A stretch of 64,000 nucleotides of DNA, taken from NCBI GenBank assembly GCA_021794095.1, contig JAJYRN010000008.1, positions 1 to 64,000 of the forward strand, given 5' to 3'. The position numbers and the translations under genes were made by a program. Of the stretch, positions 6,458 to 15,490 are shown in pieces. The notes beneath the pieces are model-generated. The model worked only from the letters and a program-made list of their open reading frames with translations. It did no database searches and was not told where the DNA came from. Position 1 is the stretch's first letter. Every line of letters starts with the position of its first letter. This DNA comes from Acidobacteriota bacterium (GTDB taxonomy: Bacteria; Acidobacteriota; Holophagae; Holophagales; Holophagaceae).

Positions 6458-9148
6458 ATGGATCCCCGACGGCCCGATCCCGACGAGCTGCTCCGGCAGG
6501 TGCAGGAGGAGGAGGCCCGGACCCGGCGCGCCAAGCTGAAGATCTTCTTCGGGGCGGCTCCAGGCGTGGGGAAGACCTACGCCATGCTCTCGGAGGCCCA
6601 GGAGCGGCGTGGCGAGGGCGTGGATGTGGTGATCGGCGTGGTGGAGACCCACGGCCGGGAGGAGACGGCCGGGCTGCTGGAGGGCCTGGAGGCGCTGCCC
6701 CGGAAGGAGCTCCCGTACAGCGGGCTCTTCCTTCCGGAGTTCGACCTGGACCGGGCCCTGGCACGGCATCCAGCCCTCATCCTCATGGATGAGCTGGCCC
6801 ACACCAATGTGAAAGGCTCCCGCCACGAGAAACGCTGGCAGGACGTGATGGAGCTGCTAGACGCGGGCATTGACGTCCACACCACCCTCAACGTCCAGCA
6901 CCTGGAGAGCCTGCGGGACGTGGTGGCCCAGATCACCGGCGTGATCGTCCGGGAGAATGTGCCGGACACGCTCCTGGAGCGGGCGGACGAGGTGGAGCTG
7001 GTGGATCTTCCACCGGATGACCTGCTGGTGCGGCTCAAGGAGGGGAGGGTCTACCTGCCGGATCAGGCGCGGCATGCCAAGGACCGCTTCTTCCGGAAGG
7101 GGAACCTCCTGGCGCTGCGCGAGCTGGCCCTGCGGCACACCGCCGAGAGCGTGGATGCCCAGATGCGGCGCTACATGGCCTCGGAAGGCATCCGGAAAAC
7201 CTGGGCGGCCGGGGACCGGTTGCTGGTCTGCATCGGGCCCGAGGCGCTCTCGGAACGGCTCATCCGCGGCACCCGGCGGCTGGCGAGCGCCCTGGGCGCC
7301 CGGTGGACGGCCCTCTACATGGAGACGCCGCGCCATGTCCGCTATTCCGAGGCGGATCGGGCGCGCGTGGAAGCCCACTTGCGGCTGGCGGAGAAGCTGG
7401 GCGGCGAAACGGTCGTCATCGAAGGCGGCGGCCGGGCGGCCGAGGATGTCCTGGCCTACGCCCGCAGCCGGAACATCACGAAGATCGTCGTTGGCAAACC
7501 CTCCCGTCCCCGCTTGATAGACCTCCTGCTGGGTTCACCGGTGGACGATCTGGTGCGCGCCAGCGGCGACATTGACGTCTTCGTCATCACGGGAGAATCC
7601 ACCCAGGAATCGGCCACCCCCACCCTGGCGCATCGCCTCACGAGCCCGCTGCGGAACTACCTCCTCAGCGCGCTGGTGGTCGGCATCGCCAGCGTGGCCG
7701 CCCGGCTGCTGATCCAGCGCACCGAGCTGGCGGATATCGTCATGGTGTACATCCTGGGCATCGTGCTGGTGGCCACTCGGTTCGGACGCGGCCCCTCGCT
7801 TTTGGCCTCGCTGCTCAGCGTGGCGGCCTTCGATTTCTTCTTCATCCCGCCCTACCTCACCTTCGCCGTGGGCGATTTCCGCCACATCGGCACCTTCGCC
7901 GTCATGCTCCTGGTGGGCTTGGTCATCGGCAACCTCACGGAGCGGATCCGCGCCCAGGCACGGCTGGCCCGCAGCCGCGAACAGCGCACCCGCTCGCTCT
8001 ACCGGCTGGGGCAGGCCCTGGCTCAGGGCAGCGGCTCCACCGCCATGGTCGGAACGGCCATCCAAAACATCGCCACCCAGTTCCAGAGCCACGCCGTGGT
8101 GCTTCTGCCGGACGCCTCGGGACGCCTCCAGGCCCCGGACCACCACCTGGCCTTCCCCCTGAACGACCAGGAGCGGGGCGTGGCCCAGTGGGTCTTCGAC
8201 CACGGCGAACCGGCGGGGCTCGGGACACTCACGCTGCCGGGGGCCCGGGCCACCTACCTTCCCCTCAAGGGCGCGGCCGGTGTGATCGGTGTCCTGGGCG
8301 TCCTGCCGGATCGGTCGCCCCAGTGGGAGGAGCCCGACCAGCGGCAGCTGCTGGAGGCTTTCGCCAACCAGACGGCCCTGGCCCTGGAGCGGGCCCTCCT
8401 GGCCGAACAGGGCGCGGCGGATCGCCGCCGCGCCGACGAGGAACGCCTCCGCAACGCCCTGCTCAGCTCCGTCTCCCACGACCTGCGCACGCCCCTGGGC
8501 GTCATCACCGGCGCCGTGAGCATGGCCCTGGAGACCCCGGGCCTATCCGAAGCGGGACGCCGAGAACTGCTCCAATCGGCCCAGGAGGAATCCCAGCGGC
8601 TCCACCGGCTGGTCAGCAACCTCCTGGACATCACGCGCCTGGAGGCGGGTTCCCTGGAGCTGCGGAAGGACTGGACGCCCCTCGAGGAAATCATCGGCTC
8701 CGCCCTCAACCGCCAGGAACTGGCGCACGGAGCCGCCCGGGTCCAGGTCCAGTTGCCTCCCGACCTGCCCCTGGCGCCCCTGGACGGCGTGCTGATGGAA
8801 CAGGTGCTTCTCAACCTCCTGGATAACGCCCTGAAGTACTCCCCACCCGGTTCCCCTGTGGATATCAAGGCCTGGGCCAGCGCGAAAACCCTCACGCTCT
8901 CCGTGACCGACCACGGACCGGGCATCGCCCAAGGCGAGGAAGAACGCATCTTCGAGAAGCTGGCCCGGGGGAAGGGCGCGGAGGGACGCCCCGGCACCGG
9001 CCTCGGACTTGCCATCTGCCGGGGCATCGTCGCCGCCCACGGCGGCCGGATCCAGGCCACCAACCATCCCCAGGGCGGTGCCCAGTTCCTGGTGTCCCTG
9101 CCCCTGGGCGATCCGCCGCCCACCCTGCCTGCGGAGGCCCCGCCATGA
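6458..9148 (+). CDS. kdpD: Osmosensitive K+ channel histidine kinase KdpD
   Basis: An 896-residue sensor kinase. Domains in order: KdpD N-terminal ATPase-like domain with Walker A GAAPGVGKT (residues 32-40) and Walker B-like DELAHTN; a universal-stress-protein domain (about 245-375, with TKIVVGKPSRPR); four membrane segments of DUF4118 type (about 395-500); a GAF-like region; a HisKA dimerisation domain with SHDLRTPLG (His674); and an HATPase domain (N-box LLDNALKYS, GTGLGLAI). KdpD phosphorylates KdpE when K+ is limiting. Its stop overlaps the kdpE start by 4 nt. The 6-nt gap before the ATG lacks a ribosome-binding site. Confidence 0.96.
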   Translation: MDPRRPDPDELLRQVQEEEARTRRAKLKIFFGAAPGVGKTYAMLSEAQERRGEGVDVVIGVVETHGREETAGLLEGLEALPRKELPYSGLFLPEFDLDRALARHPALILMDELAHTNVKGSRHEKRWQDVMELLDAGIDVHTTLNVQHLESLRDVVAQITGVIVRENVPDTLLERADEVELVDLPPDDLLVRLKEGRVYLPDQARHAKDRFFRKGNLLALRELALRHTAESVDAQMRRYMASEGIRKTWAAGDRLLVCIGPEALSERLIRGTRRLASALGARWTALYMETPRHVRYSEADRARVEAHLRLAEKLGGETVVIEGGGRAAEDVLAYARSRNITKIVVGKPSRPRLIDLLLGSPVDDLVRASGDIDVFVITGESTQESATPTLAHRLTSPLRNYLLSALVVGIASVAARLLIQRTELADIVMVYILGIVLVATRFGRGPSLLASLLSVAAFDFFFIPPYLTFAVGDFRHIGTFAVMLLVGLVIGNLTERIRAQARLARSREQRTRSLYRLGQALAQGSGSTAMVGTAIQNIATQFQSHAVVLLPDASGRLQAPDHHLAFPLNDQERGVAQWVFDHGEPAGLGTLTLPGARATYLPLKGAAGVIGVLGVLPDRSPQWEEPDQRQLLEAFANQTALALERALLAEQGAADRRRADEERLRNALLSSVSHDLRTPLGVITGAVSMALETPGLSEAGRRELLQSAQEESQRLHRLVSNLLDITRLEAGSLELRKDWTPLEEIIGSALNRQELAHGAARVQVQLPPDLPLAPLDGVLMEQVLLNLLDNALKYSPPGSPVDIKAWASAKTLTLSVTDHGPGIAQGEEERIFEKLARGKGAEGRPGTGLGLAICRGIVAAHGGRIQATNHPQGGAQFLVSLPLGDPPPTLPAEAPP

Positions 9149-9846
9149 GTGAGCCGGCTCCGCCCCTGGTCCTGCTCGTCGAAGACGAGCCGCAGATGCG
9201 CCGCTTCCTCCGGGTCGTGCTGGAGGGAAGCGGCCACCGGTTCCTGGAAGCGGCCACCGCCCAGGAAGGGCTGACCCTGGCCGCCAGCCACCGGCCCCAC
9301 CTCATCCTGCTGGACCTCGGCCTGCCCGACATGGATGGCCTCGAACTGGCCAAGCGGCTCCGCGAGTGGTACACGGCGCCCATCATCGTGCTGTCCGCCC
9401 GGGGCCAGGAGAGAGACAAGATCGGCGCCCTGGATGCGGGGGCGGACGACTACCTCACCAAGCCCTTCAGCACCGGCGAGCTTCTGGCCCGGATCAGGGT
9501 GGCCCTGCGGCACGAACAGAAATCCGAAGGCGGCGAGGCTCCTCTGTTCACCCTCGGCCGGTGGCGGGTGGATCTGGCCAAACGCCAGGTCCACGTCGGC
9601 GGCGAAGAGGTCCACCTCACGCCCCTGGAATACAAGCTCTTCACCACCCTCATCCGGCACGCGGGCAAGGTCGTCACCCATCAGCAGCTCCTGCGCGAAG
9701 TCTGGGGCGGCGTGCCCGGCGCCCAGCCCCTCTACCTGCGGGTCTACATGACCCAGCTCCGGCACAAGCTGGAGGAGAATCCATCCCGCCCCCGCTACCT
9801 CCAGACCGAGCCCGGCGTCGGCTATCGGCTGCGGACGGAGGAATGA
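9145..9846 (+). CDS. kdpE: KdpE, response regulator of the kdp operon
   Basis: A 233-residue OmpR/PhoB-type regulator. The receiver domain has the acidic pair ED (13-14), the phosphoacceptor Asp57 in LLDLGLPDMDG and Lys in YLTKPF. A C-terminal winged helix contains EYKLFTTL and ends with the usual GVGYRL. It starts inside the last codons of kdpD (ATGA overlap). Known KdpE proteins activate kdpFABC; the phased CTTAAC repeats at 1557-1604 are a possible binding site. Confidence 0.95.
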   Translation: MSEPAPPLVLLVEDEPQMRRFLRVVLEGSGHRFLEAATAQEGLTLAASHRPHLILLDLGLPDMDGLELAKRLREWYTAPIIVLSARGQERDKIGALDAGADDYLTKPFSTGELLARIRVALRHEQKSEGGEAPLFTLGRWRVDLAKRQVHVGGEEVHLTPLEYKLFTTLIRHAGKVVTHQQLLREVWGGVPGAQPLYLRVYMTQLRHKLEENPSRPRYLQTEPGVGYRLRTEE

Positions 9847-9919
9847 CGCTGAGGATCACCCCGGTTCGATGGCCATGGTGAACCCAGCATGCCCTAGCGA
9901 TTTGATAAGGCCACGCCGG

Positions 9920-9948
9920 TTGCGGCGCGCCCCTGTCCGGTCCACACT
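9920..9948 (+). promoter_or_regulatory. Possible promoter upstream of the proC leader
   Basis: TTGCGG and CACACT are separated by 17 bp, in a 260-bp gap after kdpE. This would start a leader of about 150 nt before proC that includes the terminator at 10060-10090. The -10 match is weak. The call rests mainly on spacing and on the need for a promoter upstream of that terminator. Confidence 0.25.
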
Positions 9949-9993
9949 GTTCCCCACGATGTCCGCCCTCCACTTCCAGACCCCGCGCCCTAG

Positions 9994-10059
9994 CCTGCCG
10001 CCCCCCGGTGCGCCGGCAGGAGAGGGTCTGAGTTAGACGCAGGTCGAGCCCCCCACCCA
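9994..10059 (+). other. Structured leader segment before proC
   Basis: Two small hairpins precede the terminator: CCTGCCG pairing with CGGCAGG, then GTCT-GAGTT-AGAC. Together with the terminator they form a compact structured leader directly in front of proC. No known riboswitch class is recognised by eye. It could instead be a short non-coding RNA ending at the terminator. Confidence 0.35.
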
Positions 10060-10090
10060 CCCCCGATCGCACCCGCGGTCGGGGGTTTTT
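10060..10090 (+). terminator. Intrinsic terminator just upstream of proC, possible attenuator
   Basis: CCCCCGATCG pairs with CGGTCGGGGG (one wobble pair) around a 6-nt loop and is followed by TTTTT. It ends only 16 nt before the proC ATG, leaving no room for a full promoter after it. RNA polymerase must therefore read through it to express proC, unless a promoter overlaps the hairpin. That position fits attenuation. It could also simply end kdpDE transcription. Confidence 0.8.
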
Positions 10091-10106
10091 CGTTTAGGGA
10101 GTCCGC

Positions 10107-10928
10107 ATGTCTGAAGAAAACCACCTTCCCGCCACGGCCCTCCTGGGCTTCGGCACCATGGGCCACGCCCTGGCCACGGGCCTGCTGGCCCAGGGTCTCG
10201 CCACGCCGGAGACCCTTCGCGTAGGGGCCCGCCGGCCCGACGTGGCCCGCGCCCATGCCGAGCCCCTGGGCCTTACGGCCGTGCATCCCGAGGAGGCCGC
10301 TGACCACGCCCAGATCCTCGTCCTGGCGGTGAAGCCCCGGGATGTGGACGGCCTGCTGCACCGGCTGCAGGAGGCCGGCGCGCTGGATCACCATCCCCTG
10401 ATCCTCTCCATCGCTGCGGGCGTGGGGACAGCGTCCCTGGCCGAACGGGCTCCCGGCTGCGCCATCGTCCGGGCCATGCCCAACACGCCCTGCGCCATCG
10501 GCAAGGGCGTGACCGTGATCTGCGCGGGCCCCGGCGCCGAGGCGCGCCACCTCGACCTGGCCCGGCGCATCTTCGGCTGCATGGGTTCGGTGATGGAGCT
10601 GGACGAGAAGCACATGGACACCGTCACGGGCCTGGGCGGCAGCGGCCCCGCCTTCATCTACCTCGTGCTGGAGGCCATGGCCGAAGGCGCCGTCATGCGC
10701 GGAATGCCCCGGGCTGTGGCCCTGGAGCTGGCCGCCCGCGTGGCCCTGGGCGCCTCGGAGATGCTGCTGGCCACCGGCCGCCACCCCGCATCCCTGCGGG
10801 ATGACGTCACCACCCCCGCGGGCTGCACCATCGCGGGCCTGCTGGCCCTGGAGGACGGCCGCATCCGCTCCGTGCTGGCCCGAGGCGTGGAGACCGCCGC
10901 CAAGGTGGCCGGGGAATTGGCCTCCTAG
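10107..10928 (+). CDS. proC: Pyrroline-5-carboxylate reductase
   Basis: A 273-residue cytoplasmic enzyme that reduces 1-pyrroline-5-carboxylate to proline with NAD(P)H, the last step of proline synthesis. The N-terminal Rossmann motif GFGTMG is at residues 14-19. The family features AVKP, RAMPNTPC, GLGGSGPAF and the C-terminal DDVTTPAGCTIAGL are all present. A GGGAG site precedes the ATG by about 5 nt. It stands alone, preceded by an intrinsic terminator and followed by a 324-bp gap. Proline is a common osmolyte, which could link it to the neighbouring kdp locus, but no common control is visible. Confidence 0.95.
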   Translation: MSEENHLPATALLGFGTMGHALATGLLAQGLATPETLRVGARRPDVARAHAEPLGLTAVHPEEAADHAQILVLAVKPRDVDGLLHRLQEAGALDHHPLILSIAAGVGTASLAERAPGCAIVRAMPNTPCAIGKGVTVICAGPGAEARHLDLARRIFGCMGSVMELDEKHMDTVTGLGGSGPAFIYLVLEAMAEGAVMRGMPRAVALELAARVALGASEMLLATGRHPASLRDDVTTPAGCTIAGLLALEDGRIRSVLARGVETAAKVAGELAS

Positions 10929-11180
10929 CGCCTCCAGGGGCCTCATTGAAGAGGTCAAGGTCGCTTCCTGTTTCAGACACAATGGCCATTTTCATCCGTG
11001 GCCATCCAACTGCCTCCATTCACTTCGCATGCAACGAGAATAAGCGGATCCGCAATTGAACGAATCCATACCTTTGAATCATCTTTATGACGCTCCGTCA
11101 AATTCAGCACCTTTCGAATTGCCGTCGGCACTTTCGCAGGAAGGGGGTCAAGGTCGGCTGGTATCCTGATCTTCAGGCTC
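10929..11180. other. Non-coding stretch between proC and the aminotransferase
   Basis: AT-richer than its neighbours and without a supportable gene. A minus-strand open frame crosses it but continues antisense into the aminotransferase gene and has no recognisable domain. The stretch probably holds the promoter of the leader that ends in the terminator at 11181. Confidence 0.5.
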
Positions 11181-11213
11181 GTCGTTCCTGCGTTTCCGCA
11201 GGGACGGCTTTTT
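11181..11213 (+). terminator. Intrinsic terminator upstream of the aminotransferase gene
   Basis: GTCGTTCCTGC pairs with GCAGGGACGGC (two wobble pairs) around the loop GTTTCC and is followed by TTTTT. It lies 253 bp after the proC stop but only 39 bp before the aminotransferase GTG. It may end proC transcription. Its nearness to the next gene also allows a leader or attenuator role, as seen in front of proC. Confidence 0.75.
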
Positions 11214-11252
11214 CGTACCGGTCCACTGCGCCCCATCCGCCCTGGAGGTTCC

Positions 11253-12566
11253 GTGTCCACCCTGCTGCTGTCTTCCGAGACGCCTGCCTTTGCTGTACCT
11301 GAAGCGAACCTCATCCCCGCGAGCGACCACCTGGGCCGCCTGGCACCCATCCCGCCCTCCCGGATGTTCCTCATCAACAAATCGCTGAAGGTGTTCCAGC
11401 AGAAGCAGCCTGGCGTGCCGGTCTTCGACGCCAGCCAGGGCGACGGCGGCGCCTCCCTGCCCGGCGTGCCCGAGGCCCTGCTGGACCGCGCCTTTGAGCT
11501 GCAGAAGCAGCATGGCACCGCCTACGACATGCCCTTCGGCACCGAGGCCTACCGCAAGGCCGTGGCCGAGACCTACTGGAAGCTGGACCCCGCCACGGGC
11601 TGGGGGCCGGGCAACGTCATCGGCACCCAGGGCGGCCGCGACGGCCTGCAGAAGGCCTACCAGGCCATGCTGGCGCTGGGGCATGGCCGCCAGGGCGATG
11701 TGGTCGTCGTCAGCCGCGTGCCCTGGATCAGCTACAACTGGGGCCCCTACGGCGTGGGCGCCAACGTCATGTGGGCCCCCGGTCGGCCCGAGGAAGGCTG
11801 GGCCTACAGCGAGGACGGCCTCCGCGCCTGCGTGGCGGAAGCCGCCCGGCATGGCCGCAAGGTGGCCGGCCTCGTCATCACCAGCCCCGACAACCCCACG
11901 GGCCAGACGCTCACCCTGGACCGCCAGATCACCCTGGCGAAGGCGGCCCTGGAAGCGGGCGTGGCCTTCGTCCTCTTCGACTGGATGTACCACGTCGTCA
12001 GCGACCACGAGCCCTACGACGTGAACGCCCTGCTGAAGGCCTTCGAGCCCGCCCAGCGGGAGCGCCTGATGGTGCTGGATGGCATCACCAAGAGCCTCGG
12101 CGGTTCCAACATCCGCAATTGCCACCTGCTGGCGGCGGAATCCGTGGTGAAGGTGATCGTGGCCCAGGCCTCGCACACCGTGATCCCCTCCTTCTTCAGC
12201 TTGGCCGTGGCCATGGCCGCCTATGAGAAGGGGATCAAGGAGGCCGCTGCGCCCATCGTGGGGCCCACCCACGCCAGCCGGGCCTGGCTGCGTGGCTTCC
12301 TGAAGGAGCAGGGCCTGCGCCACATCCTGGGCCAGGGCTACTACGCCTTCCTCCATGTGGGCGATGCCCTGAAGGCCAAGGGCTGGGCCGATTCCGAGCC
12401 CCTGGGCCAGCACCTCGCCGAGGAGGTGGGCGTGGCTGTCGTGCCCGGCGCCTTCTTCAGCCCCTACGGCGCCGAGTGGATCCGCTTCTCCTACGCCACC
12501 CCCCCCGAGCGCACCCAGGGTGCCGCCGAACGCCTCGTGACGGCGCTCAAGGCCCTGCAACAGTGA
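11253..12566 (+). CDS. PLP-dependent class I/II aminotransferase
   Basis: A 437-residue fold-type I aminotransferase. The PLP-binding lysine is probably Lys280 in LDGITKSLGGSN. Other family marks are the TSPDNPTGQ loop, the FDWMYH segment with the cofactor-pairing Asp, and a C-terminal IRFSYA segment with the carboxylate-binding Arg. Substrate cannot be told from sequence. The GTG start has GGAGG 5 nt upstream. About 110 bp downstream on the same strand is the ligase-peptidase fusion, so the two may act on the same amino-acid or peptide product. That link is inference. Confidence 0.88.
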   Translation: MSTLLLSSETPAFAVPEANLIPASDHLGRLAPIPPSRMFLINKSLKVFQQKQPGVPVFDASQGDGGASLPGVPEALLDRAFELQKQHGTAYDMPFGTEAYRKAVAETYWKLDPATGWGPGNVIGTQGGRDGLQKAYQAMLALGHGRQGDVVVVSRVPWISYNWGPYGVGANVMWAPGRPEEGWAYSEDGLRACVAEAARHGRKVAGLVITSPDNPTGQTLTLDRQITLAKAALEAGVAFVLFDWMYHVVSDHEPYDVNALLKAFEPAQRERLMVLDGITKSLGGSNIRNCHLLAAESVVKVIVAQASHTVIPSFFSLAVAMAAYEKGIKEAAAPIVGPTHASRAWLRGFLKEQGLRHILGQGYYAFLHVGDALKAKGWADSEPLGQHLAEEVGVAVVPGAFFSPYGAEWIRFSYATPPERTQGAAERLVTALKALQQ

Positions 12567-12574
12567 AAAAGATT

Positions 12575-12640
12575 CACCACGAAGAACATCTGTCTCACGG
12601 CCTTCTCGCCTTCCTTCGTGGTCTTCGCGTCTTCGTGGTT
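12575..12640. repeat. CACCACGAAG inverted-repeat element
   Basis: CACCACGAAG at 12575 is matched in inverted form by CTTCGTGGT at 12614 and CTTCGTGGTT at 12631, with the related CTTCGCGT between them. It occupies most of the gap between the aminotransferase and fusion genes. Similar CTTCGTGG-rich intergenic stretches occur in many high-GC bacteria. It could form a hairpin in the transcript; function unknown. Confidence 0.5.
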
Positions 12641-12676
12641 CGGTCTTCATTCCTTGCGGTTTGATCCGGAGTGCCC

Positions 12677-15490
12677 GTGTTTGATCTGAATGCCTTCGTG
12701 GAGAAGTTCACCCTGGCGCGCCAGACGGCGCTGGAGACGCGCCCGGCGGGCGGGCTCTGCGGGCTGGAGCTGGAGTGGAACCTCATGGATTCGCAGTTCC
12801 GGCCGCTGCTCACCGTGGGCACGGGACCGGACCGCATGTCCTTCGTGGACCACCTGCGCGCGAAGGTGCTGGCGCCCTGGACGGAGCCCTATCACCAGCT
12901 GGAGGTCTTCCACTGGATGATCGAGTGGGTGACGCGGCCCTACCACACGCCGAAGGGCACCATCTACGAAGGCCGCCTGCTGGAGGCGGAGCTCATCAAC
13001 GCCCTGGACCGAGATGGCCGGACCTTCGGAGAACCCCTCTACTACTGGCACGGGAACCTGCTCGTCCTGCCGGAGATCGGCCCCGACTGCGTGCCGGAGT
13101 CCTGGCACCTGGCCAAGCGCCGCTACCTCCAGCGCTGCGTGGAGCTCTATGGCACCGAGCTGGCCACGGCGGGCACCCATTCCAACCTGAGCCTGCCCGA
13201 ACCCATGCTGGCCTGGGACTTCATGCACCTGCCCGCCACCGAGCGCGGCGACCGCCACCTGGACGACTACAAGAACCAGGTCTACATCACCGCCACCCGG
13301 CTCATGCGGGCCTTCGCGGCCCTCTTCATCGCCACCAGCGCCAGCACACCGATGCAGGCCTCCACAGAAGGCGGGAAGCCCGTGGTGCGGCTCACGCCCT
13401 TCGAATCCGTGCGCAACCTCACCTTCCCGAACCCGCCCGCCCTCGATGTGCCGGACCTCAACCGCAGCCACCCGGACTACCTGCGGCTGTCCTACGACCT
13501 GGTACGCCGCGGCGTGCGCTTCGGCAACAACAACTGGATCCCCGTGCGCGCCCGCTCGCAAGCAGAGCCCGTGGAGCGCCTCATCCAGGTCACCAGCGAC
13601 CAGCTCCACGACATCTACGCCCGGGGCCTCTTCGCCGCCGGCGAGACGCACAACGTCGAGGACATGGCCGCCCAGATCGAGCGGCAGAACCTCTTCGCCC
13701 GCATTGACCTGCCCATGGCCCGCGTGGAGGTCCGCACGGACGACCCCGGCCACGCGCTGGCCCTGGACGTGGCGAACCTCACCCTGAAGCACCTCTTGCT
13801 GCTGCGGTTCTACGGCGATCCGGACTTCGCCCGGGGCTTCCGTTACGACGCTGAGGACATCAGCCGCGCCCGTCGCAACGAAGACGTGGCCGCCCGGGAA
13901 GGCCTGCGCGCCGTCATCGAGGATCCCCTCACGGCCAAGCCCGTGGCCATGCGCACCTTCCTCGCCTGGACGCTCGACCAGCTCCGGCCCCTGGCGGAGG
14001 CCCTCGGGTTCTGGGAGGATCTGGCGCCCCTCGTCGAGATGGCCGCCGGCGCCCCCAGCACCGCCGAGCGCATGCGCGCTCGGCTGAAGGCCGACCTCAA
14101 GGGCTCGGACCTCGTCCCGCCCGAGCTCCTGGCCCGGCTGGCGGAGGAGCGCCAGGCCCGCGTGGCCAGCGAAGTCGAAGCCCTCACCGGAAACCTCGCC
14201 ACCCTCGGCGCCGAAGAGGACAAGCTCCAGGACTTCCTCGAGCGGGCCCGGGACGAGGTCTCCCTGGACGCCCGCGCCCCCATCCGCTTCCAGCCCCGGC
14301 CTGAGGCCCTGGTGGAAACGGAGTACGCCGACAAGACGGCCGAGATCCTGGCCCTGTCCCAGCGCCTCATCCGCATCCCATCCGTCACCGCCTGTCCCGA
14401 GGAGCGCCTCGCCGAGGTCCGCCGGGCCGGCACCTTCATCCACGACTACCTGCGCAACCACGGCGTGCCCGTCCGCACCTTCGACGGGGCCACCTTCCCG
14501 GCCCTGCTGGCCCACTTCCCGCGCCAGGAGCAGGCCCCGGCCATGCTCTGCGGCCACTTCGACGTGGTGGCGCCGGAGCCCGACGACAGCCAGTTCGAGC
14601 CGAAGGTCGAGGGCGACTACCTCTGGGGCCGCGGCGCCGCGGACATGAAGACGGTGCTGGCCACCTACCTCGTGTGGATGAAGGACACGCTGAAGAAGGG
14701 CGCCCCCTATCCGCCCGTGAACCTGCTGATGGTCGGCAACGAGGAGAACGGCGAGCTGGAGCCCATGGGCACGCCCCACGTGCTGGCGCGACTGAAGGAG
14801 GAATCCGGCTACGCACCTTCCTTCTTCGTGGCCGGAGAGCGCACGGGCGAGAAGGGCACGGAACTCTGGGGCGAGGTCTGCACCCAGAACCGGGGTGTGC
14901 TGCGCTTCGAGCTGGTGGCCACGGGCACCCGCGGCCACAGCGGCCTGGCGGGTGGTCCCGACCTCATGGAGCGCCTGCTCGGCGCCCGGGAGGCCCTGCG
15001 CGAGCTCTTCCCGAAACACCTCACCCTCAAGGGCGAGAACGGCTGGCAGTCCCTGGCCCGCTTCGCCTACATCCAGGTGGGCACGCCCGGCGTCTACAAC
15101 ATCACCCCCGACCATGGCAGCCTGGGCGTGGAGATCCGCCCCATCCCCCAGGATGACGTCTCGAAGCTGCGCGCGGAGATCGAGGCCCTGGCCGCCGAGC
15201 GGGGCCTGGAGCTGGTGCCCTCCGCCTGGGAGCCCGGCGTGGCCTGCGATCCCGACAACCCGTATCTGAAGGCGCTCCTGGCGGGCATCGTCGCCGCCGG
15301 AGGCGATGCCCCCATGGGCCGCAAGGGGGCCGGCACCTCCGCCCGCTTCGCGCCCGGCGGCCAGGCCGTCGTCTGGGGCCAGAGCGGCATCGGCCCCCAC
15401 GCCAAGGGCGAGCGCCACTACATCCCCAGCATCGAGCCCTACTACCGGGCCCTGGAGGCGTTTGGACAGGCGCTGTCGCGCCTTCCCTAG
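12677..15490 (+). CDS. Fusion of a GCS2-type ligase and an M20 metallopeptidase
   Basis: About 937 residues joining two enzymes. Residues 1-500 resemble glutamate-cysteine ligase type 2 proteins: GLELEWNLMD, HQLEVFHWMIEW, GTHSNLSLPEP and FGNNNWIP. Residues 550-937 are a complete M20 (ArgE/DapE/CPG2) peptidase with metal ligands His627 (GHFDVV), Asp656 (GRGAADMK), Glu689-Glu690 (NEENGE) and His914. The first half would form an amide or gamma-glutamyl-type bond with ATP; the second would hydrolyse one. GTG 12677 is preferred over GTG 12671 because GGAG lies 5 nt before it. Its stop overlaps that of the convergent glycerate kinase gene. Substrates are unknown. Confidence 0.8.
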   Translation: MFDLNAFVEKFTLARQTALETRPAGGLCGLELEWNLMDSQFRPLLTVGTGPDRMSFVDHLRAKVLAPWTEPYHQLEVFHWMIEWVTRPYHTPKGTIYEGRLLEAELINALDRDGRTFGEPLYYWHGNLLVLPEIGPDCVPESWHLAKRRYLQRCVELYGTELATAGTHSNLSLPEPMLAWDFMHLPATERGDRHLDDYKNQVYITATRLMRAFAALFIATSASTPMQASTEGGKPVVRLTPFESVRNLTFPNPPALDVPDLNRSHPDYLRLSYDLVRRGVRFGNNNWIPVRARSQAEPVERLIQVTSDQLHDIYARGLFAAGETHNVEDMAAQIERQNLFARIDLPMARVEVRTDDPGHALALDVANLTLKHLLLLRFYGDPDFARGFRYDAEDISRARRNEDVAAREGLRAVIEDPLTAKPVAMRTFLAWTLDQLRPLAEALGFWEDLAPLVEMAAGAPSTAERMRARLKADLKGSDLVPPELLARLAEERQARVASEVEALTGNLATLGAEEDKLQDFLERARDEVSLDARAPIRFQPRPEALVETEYADKTAEILALSQRLIRIPSVTACPEERLAEVRRAGTFIHDYLRNHGVPVRTFDGATFPALLAHFPRQEQAPAMLCGHFDVVAPEPDDSQFEPKVEGDYLWGRGAADMKTVLATYLVWMKDTLKKGAPYPPVNLLMVGNEENGELEPMGTPHVLARLKEESGYAPSFFVAGERTGEKGTELWGEVCTQNRGVLRFELVATGTRGHSGLAGGPDLMERLLGAREALRELFPKHLTLKGENGWQSLARFAYIQVGTPGVYNITPDHGSLGVEIRPIPQDDVSKLRAEIEALAAERGLELVPSAWEPGVACDPDNPYLKALLAGIVAAGGDAPMGRKGAGTSARFAPGGQAVVWGQSGIGPHAKGERHYIPSIEPYYRALEAFGQALSRLP

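Follow-up and report, generated by a model that had tools for sequence, protein, structure and literature searches.

A putative proline-sensing leader-peptide attenuator ahead of proC in Holophagaceae, with leaders of the same layout before other amino-acid genes

Why should a strong intrinsic terminator stand immediately in front of a gene of proline synthesis? The question is raised by proC of an acidobacterium of the family Holophagaceae, within a stretch of 64,000 nucleotides (hereafter the window) on contig C26 of a 99%-complete genome of 2.99 Mb (G000), whose relatives include Geothrix species. A preliminary description of this DNA had proposed that proC is expressed by read-through, as in attenuation, perhaps in response to proline or to osmotic state. 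In our opinion, the proC leader is very probably a ribosome-mediated transcription attenuator of the trp type, sensing proline via charged tRNA-Pro, and the functional statements made below are predictions of this hypothesis.

The leader region of proC

The proC gene (10107..10928, on the forward strand like all features below) encodes a pyrroline-5-carboxylate reductase of 273 aa, identified by a profile search with TIGR00112 (257 bits, cut-off 197) and 88% identical to ProC of Geothrix rubra; its Shine-Dalgarno sequence AGGGAG can be read directly at 10096..10101. The terminator ahead of it (10059..10091) consists of the arms ACCCCCGATCGC-ACCC-GCGGTCGGGGGT at 10059-10086, followed by TTTTCGTTT, that is, a stem of 12 pairs including one G-U, an ACCC loop and a U-tract. 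The T-run extends to 10090, hence 16 nt (10091-10106) are left before the ATG of proC at 10107. It had been described earlier that a hairpin with a T-run ends 16 nt before proC and that no promoter fits into this gap, and both points are correct, except that the stem has 12 pairs and not 10. Folded alone, the terminator reaches -24.9 kcal/mol (z -5.2), and none of 200 shuffles is as stable. The segment 8000-13000 holds five terminator-like sites, against 1.8 expected from shuffles; two of the five have 12 pairs, and the one before proC is the richer in G-C pairs. The fold of the whole region 9950-10106 has a z of -2.67 (2 of 200 shuffles are as stable), and its minimum-energy form indeed contains two small hairpins upstream of the terminator, as had been noticed before, one at 9977-10030, directly followed by a weak second one. 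Another strong terminator-like hairpin of the window, at 11181-11213, lies about 40 nt before an aminotransferase-like gene at 11253; no matching leader ORF was recognised there on reading the sequence.

Between the stop codon of a kdpE-like gene, about 210 nt upstream of the terminator, and the terminator itself lies a short ORF (9959..10036) of 25 codons, which encodes MSALHFQTPRPSLPPPGAPAGEGLS, ends with TAG at 10034-10036 and has no clear Shine-Dalgarno sequence. Six of the 25 codons are for proline. Our candidate control codons are CCG CGC CCT AGC (Pro-Arg-Pro-Ser, 9983..9994), a 12-mer that is found in proC and proB leaders, and more Pro codons follow at 9998-10006 and 10013-10015. The preliminary description, which drew its left edge at 9994, omitted the promoter, the start of the leader ORF and the first control codons, and it overlooked the leader peptide, the sensor that we propose.

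The ORF is preceded by a putative promoter (9920..9948) with a -35 element TTGCGG (9920-9925), a 17-nt spacer and a -10 element CACACT (9943-9948). A scan of 8000-13000 with the consensus found no promoter, this pair included, and our assignment is based on conservation. The arrangement TTGC, 17 nt, CANACT is present in four of four sister species, and of the 27 proB leaders 22 have TTGC and 4 have TTGT at 16-18 nt from the -10 element when the best-fitting spacing is taken for each. Transcription would then be expected to start at about 9954-9957, within a few bases of the leader ATG, which would make the ORF almost leaderless.

Four species were compared, the window and the three with 88% identical ProC, namely L002 (Geothrix rubra), L003 and L004. 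The DNA farther upstream is unrelated among them and the region before proC is common to all. The ORF is open in all four, always with 25 codons and with its ATG ten bases past CANACT, and the peptides are MSALHFQTPRPSLPPPGAPAGEGLS in the window and MSALRLQTPRPSQPPCGAPAGEGLS, MFALLLQTPRPSQPPPGAPAGEGLS and MPVRRLQTPRPSQPPSGAPAGEGLS in the sisters. A search for a conserved leader had been suggested earlier as a check, and its outcome is clear: mean pairwise identity is 94% in the leader core and 94% in the terminator, against 36-39% far upstream. Identity amounts to 61% in the promoter region, 82% in the first leader codons, 82% from the stop codon to the terminator, 62% in the spacer with the Shine-Dalgarno sequence, 72% in the first nine proC codons and 84% in the remaining proC portion examined. 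Two tests of the reading frame were negative, since the synonymous/non-synonymous comparison across leaders gave no synonymous-substitution signal for the ORF frame, and CCN codons are not commoner in this frame (18.5%) than in the other two (15.9 and 21.7%). Thus the argument for the ORF rests on its conservation and on the matching of peptides to pathways that is described below.

Is ProC a reasonable target of such control? In the window genome the best matches to glutamate 5-kinase (proB) and to ProA, 6.7e-5 and 2.9e-5, are below the cut-off. Neither gene is over the cut-off in G011, G022, G028, G008 and G021, and both are in G001, G010 and G046. The proC gene is present in the window genome and in the first five of these, and of the 9 genomes searched, 8, among them that of the window, have ornithine aminotransferase over the cut-off; in G022 the match is partial, at a contig edge. 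Hence proline is probably made from ornithine, and ProC, as the committed step of this route, would probably be a sensible control point.

The same layout before proB and other amino-acid genes

The 12-mer CCGCGCCCTAGC (Pro-Arg-Pro-Ser) has 48 matches in 77 genomes of the family, and as a bare word it is not enriched relative to the reversed control. However, 33 of the 48 lie directly before proC or proB, and all 33 leaders have an open in-frame ATG 24, 27 or 30 nt ahead of it; the other 15 fall in unrelated, mostly coding, sequence (14 loci, one with a palindromic pair). We also counted, by fixed criteria, upstream regions that combine a -10-like hexamer, a strong terminator and an ORF 14-32 codons long in which two or more codons are for Pro. 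These criteria were reset after the sequences had been viewed, our first terminator and ORF patterns being too narrow for proB, and the shuffle control was run afterwards. The combination is present in 59 of 90 Holophagaceae regions (32 of 56 for proC and 27 of 34 for proB; proC fragments, weak matches and one truncated proB, in G034, were left out before counting), against 23 of 1800 dinucleotide-shuffled regions (1.3%, pooled over related sequences) and 0 of 90 reverse complements. Within the genus, all 26 proB regions examined have it. Among the 24 proC regions that lack it there are several in which proC directly follows another gene, and those of G051 and G068 look leader-like by eye. In G013 (L106), proC comes directly after the preceding gene with only a terminator-like T-rich tail, as if the leader had been deleted.

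Pro-x-Pro occurs in 57 of the 58 distinct proC and proB leaders, though two Pro had been a criterion for their selection. The arrangement of the prolines differs (NPIPSQPIPGIPV, NPNPCPALP, LPPQPGTP, SPCPLP), and neighbouring residues and third bases vary, which indicates that it is the Pro codons that are kept and not a single RNA word. CCT makes up 80 of 236 leader Pro codons compared with 9 of 179 in five window genes, in part because the CCTAGC word is common to leaders. A scan of proC loci from named genomes (77 of 80, the other 3 having less than 200 nt upstream) found Pro-x-Pro leaders with terminators only in the genus or family of the window; it made two errors, in that its hit at L005 is a chance ORF and the true leader of L004 was missed.

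The survey was extended with a covariance model (R1), built from 30 proB and proC leaders and applied to 93 genomes of the class; at E 0.01 it matches 61 of the 77 family genomes, some of them by non-Pro or chance matches, and none of the 16 genomes outside the family. Regions were picked from the longer hit lists of this model and of a second one for closer inspection. Of 20 non-Pro regions fetched for R1, 19 are leaders of the same layout: nine before pheA, seven before asnB, one before an AsnA-like gene and two before ilvA. The single miss is a second match in the window genome itself, where neither model finds a second leader of this kind. The peptides are rich in Phe before pheA (for example MSTSRRFFFFSFRTSGARLSGV), in Asn before asnB (MTFPSLRTNRNFNNPLPRANRAWAGEGLT; NANNNR) and before the AsnA-like gene (RQNNRNNANP), and in Ile before ilvA (HPAIAIIMSREGA). 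The second model (R2), built from 15 leaders of pheA, asnB, the AsnA-like gene, ilvA, proC and proB and run on 16 genomes, gave 13 leaders among 18 fetched regions. Three gene types that are in neither training set appeared, each at one locus: DAHP synthase with MTPRFHRYYWSPRADRAWHGEGPA (FHRYYW, E 5.9e-14), hisG with MTTFTFHHHHAHPPPPG (HHHHAH, E 1.9e-4) and leuA with MRSASLSLLLLDLLLSSAGRD (LSLLLLDLLL, E 5.2e-4). The latter two E-values come close to what chance matches give (0.002 and up), and their case is carried by peptide and gene. Gene identities come from NCBIfam for the representatives tested and from resemblance of the translation for the others; the AsnA-like gene does not reach the cut-off of its family. 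This match between peptide and product of the gene is, in our view, the strongest argument, at the sequence level, that the proC leader would sense proline by its codons.

Phe-rich leaders with terminators before pheA (chorismate mutase-prephenate dehydratase) are L270-L272, L274-L277, L280, L283 and L323; Asn-rich ones before asnB are L269, L278, L279, L281, L284, L287, L288, L328, L334 and L335, and L285 stands before the AsnA-like gene of one genome. His-, Leu-, aromatic- and Ile-rich leaders (hisG, leuA, DAHP synthase, ilvA) are L325, L326, L319 and L273, L282, L320-L322. The pheA and asnB of the types found elsewhere gave no match in G000, G022 and G028 at 1e-20, an empty answer that proves no absence.

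Do these leaders share an origin? The window leader (9959-10091) and the asnB leader L269 from another genome of the genus align in frame and nearly end to end (score 35.5; shuffles 10.0 +- 1.5), with HFQTPRPS against NFNNPLPR, then AGAGGGTCT.A..TAGA and a closely similar terminator. Outside the terminator, the likeness is clear for one of three asnB leaders (z 7.3; the others 0.1 and 1.9), and for six leaders that belong to other genes no clear likeness is seen (z -0.5 to 2.6). Descent from a common ancestor is thus no more than a possibility. We offer it tentatively, and would not ourselves favour it at present, that Holophagaceae possess one modular, almost leaderless attenuator cassette that was copied between amino-acid operons and re-aimed by swaps of control codons.

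The predicted switch and competing explanations

How would such a leader work? When charged tRNA-Pro is plentiful, the ribosome would read past the Pro codons as far as the TAG at 10034-10036 and cover region 2, and the terminator at 10059-10086 would form ahead of proC. When it is scarce, the ribosome would stall at CCG-CGC-CCT or at the next CCG-CCC-CCC, region 2 would be free to pair with the 5' arm and apex of the terminator, and RNA polymerase would enter proC. The predicted antiterminator (10007..10073, from a fold with the ribosome on Pro codons) joins GGTGCG (10007-10012) to CGCACC (10068-10073) inside the terminator, with inner pairs in addition; taken alone it is modest in the window (z -0.73). 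The minimum-energy fold also predicts a 1:2 hairpin, or anti-antiterminator (9977..10030), that overlaps the control codons, weakly supported because none of the three sisters keeps all pairs of its outer stem, one being lost in each.

The ORF, the terminator, their conservation, the recurrence of the layout on proB and the matching of peptides to pathways can be read from the sequences; the promoter and start, the pairing switch and the response to proline are what we infer from them. The switch was explored in a fold test, an equilibrium and not a kinetic model, in which a ribosome that masks 13 nt, counted from the A-site codon, is moved codon by codon and the transcript ends before the 3' arm of the terminator. 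Over 57 distinct Pro leaders, predicted sequestering of the 5' arm averages 0.65-0.76 as long as the ribosome has not passed Pro-x-Pro, then declines to 0.51 three codons farther on and to 0.23-0.35 from the fifth codon onwards. Since ribosomes placed ahead of Pro-x-Pro give almost the same value as those on it, only the later fall is informative. At the second Pro it is 0.76 compared with 0.61 when the middle region is shuffled, and 45 of the 57 leaders lie above their own shuffle mean (Wilcoxon p 1.5e-8, from related sequences). For the window the values are 0.70 at Pro, 0.03 at the stop codon and 0.40 without a ribosome; its shuffles average 0.50, and 17.5% of them reach the observed sequestering.

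The same treatment was given to 31 non-Pro leaders (23 + 8; the partial asnB leader L336 was left out). Eight of the 11 Asn leaders start to fall one or two codons past the last Asn of the run; the exceptions are L284, which falls later, L285, with no clear fall, and L328, at the last Asn. Most pheA leaders fall at codons 11-12, at the end of an FFFF-like run and before or at the last Phe, and in the leuA leader and most ilvA leaders the fall lies close to where the Leu or Ile run ends. The hisG leader falls weakly, and the DAHP synthase leader falls after YYW and then rises again. In L271 and L273 the terminator was probably misplaced (-8.4 and -4.3 kcal/mol). What the folding predicts is a terminator released as soon as the ribosome has moved beyond the cognate codons.

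It may be argued that the peptide itself stalls the ribosome, at PPP or PxP and in dependence on EF-P, such that the switch senses EF-P activity or the general state of translation instead of charged tRNA-Pro. Pro-rich stretches are hard to translate, and the window peptide does contain PPP. However, PPP is not kept (two sisters have PPC and PPS), many leaders have only separated PxP, and the leaders of other genes use pathway-matched runs of Phe, Asn, His, Leu and Ile, and we consider this reading quite unlikely. We give even less credence to an RNA-only sensor, a riboswitch or T-box to whose function the ORF would be irrelevant. Such a sensor would agree with the high conservation of the core as RNA in the four closest species and with the missing synonymous signal across leaders, but the sequence of the core varies between clades while the Pro codons stay, the ORF is open and its peptides match pathways; further, an Rfam search of the whole window for riboswitches and T-boxes gave no match at the gathering score.

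Finally, the hairpin could be the ordinary terminator of the upstream kdp transcript, with proC unregulated and expressed from an undetected promoter or by read-through. Its position about 210 nt after the kdpE-like stop codon, together with the negative consensus scan, would speak for this. On the contrary, leader and terminator are kept where the upstream DNA is unrelated, they recur before proB, and 16 nt offer no room for a promoter, which makes this explanation just as improbable as an RNA-only sensor. A response to osmotic state likewise finds no support, since conservation does not extend to the neighbouring Kdp genes: identity is 94% in leader core and terminator and 36% far upstream. 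The rest of the preliminary description, attenuation by read-through and perhaps in response to proline, seems to be largely right: both points are supported by the conserved leader, by its Pro-x-Pro peptide, by the same leader on proB and by the pathway-matched residues on other amino-acid genes.

Known systems and implications

The attenuator that we propose resembles those of the trp, his, pheA, ilv and leu type in Proteobacteria and Actinobacteria in its short ORF with cognate codons, its predicted alternative 1:2, 2:3 and 3:4 pairing and its intrinsic terminator before a biosynthetic gene. It differs from them in that proline would be the signal on proC and proB and asparagine on asnB, in its occurrence in Acidobacteriota and in an ORF that is almost leaderless. 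In Bacillus, tRNA-Pro T-box leaders of proline genes sense the charging of tRNA-Pro by a choice between terminator and antiterminator. A T-box binds the tRNA directly, whereas the proC leader has no T-box match and has an open leader ORF. In Salmonella, the Pro codons of mgtP and mgtL (on mgtCBR and mgtA) sense charged tRNA-Pro, as proposed here, and mgtP is one component of a transcription attenuator (PMC3641672); however, these leaders control genes of Mg2+ transport and virulence, not of proline synthesis, and mgtP has a Shine-Dalgarno-like site.

A survey of 2010 (PMC2965389), to whose authors' knowledge leader-peptide systems had until then been demonstrated in Proteobacteria and Actinobacteria alone, adds Firmicutes to these. 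The word proline is absent from its main text and from that of PMC1262725, and PMC4833913 counts short leader genes for Acidobacteria in general, without this word. Among the matches listed from the open full-text literature, no title or beginning of an abstract was recognised as pointing to such an attenuator on proline or asparagine biosynthetic genes; a prior mention is possible, for example in the 2010 survey by Lopatovskaya and co-workers cited in PMC4833913. As far as these sources go, the mechanism is already known, and the pairing of signal and gene, the almost leaderless layout and a multi-pathway family in Acidobacteriota appear to be new.

If our hypothesis is true, proline (on proC and proB) and asparagine would join the amino acids that regulate their own production through leader-peptide attenuation, and this mode of control would extend to Acidobacteriota. 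The family would provide a natural series, one RNA layout read with about seven sets of control codons, in which the origin of attenuators, their copying and re-coding, and their function from almost leaderless start codons would become testable. It would also suggest that a clade in which no proBA was found regulates proline synthesis along the route from ornithine.
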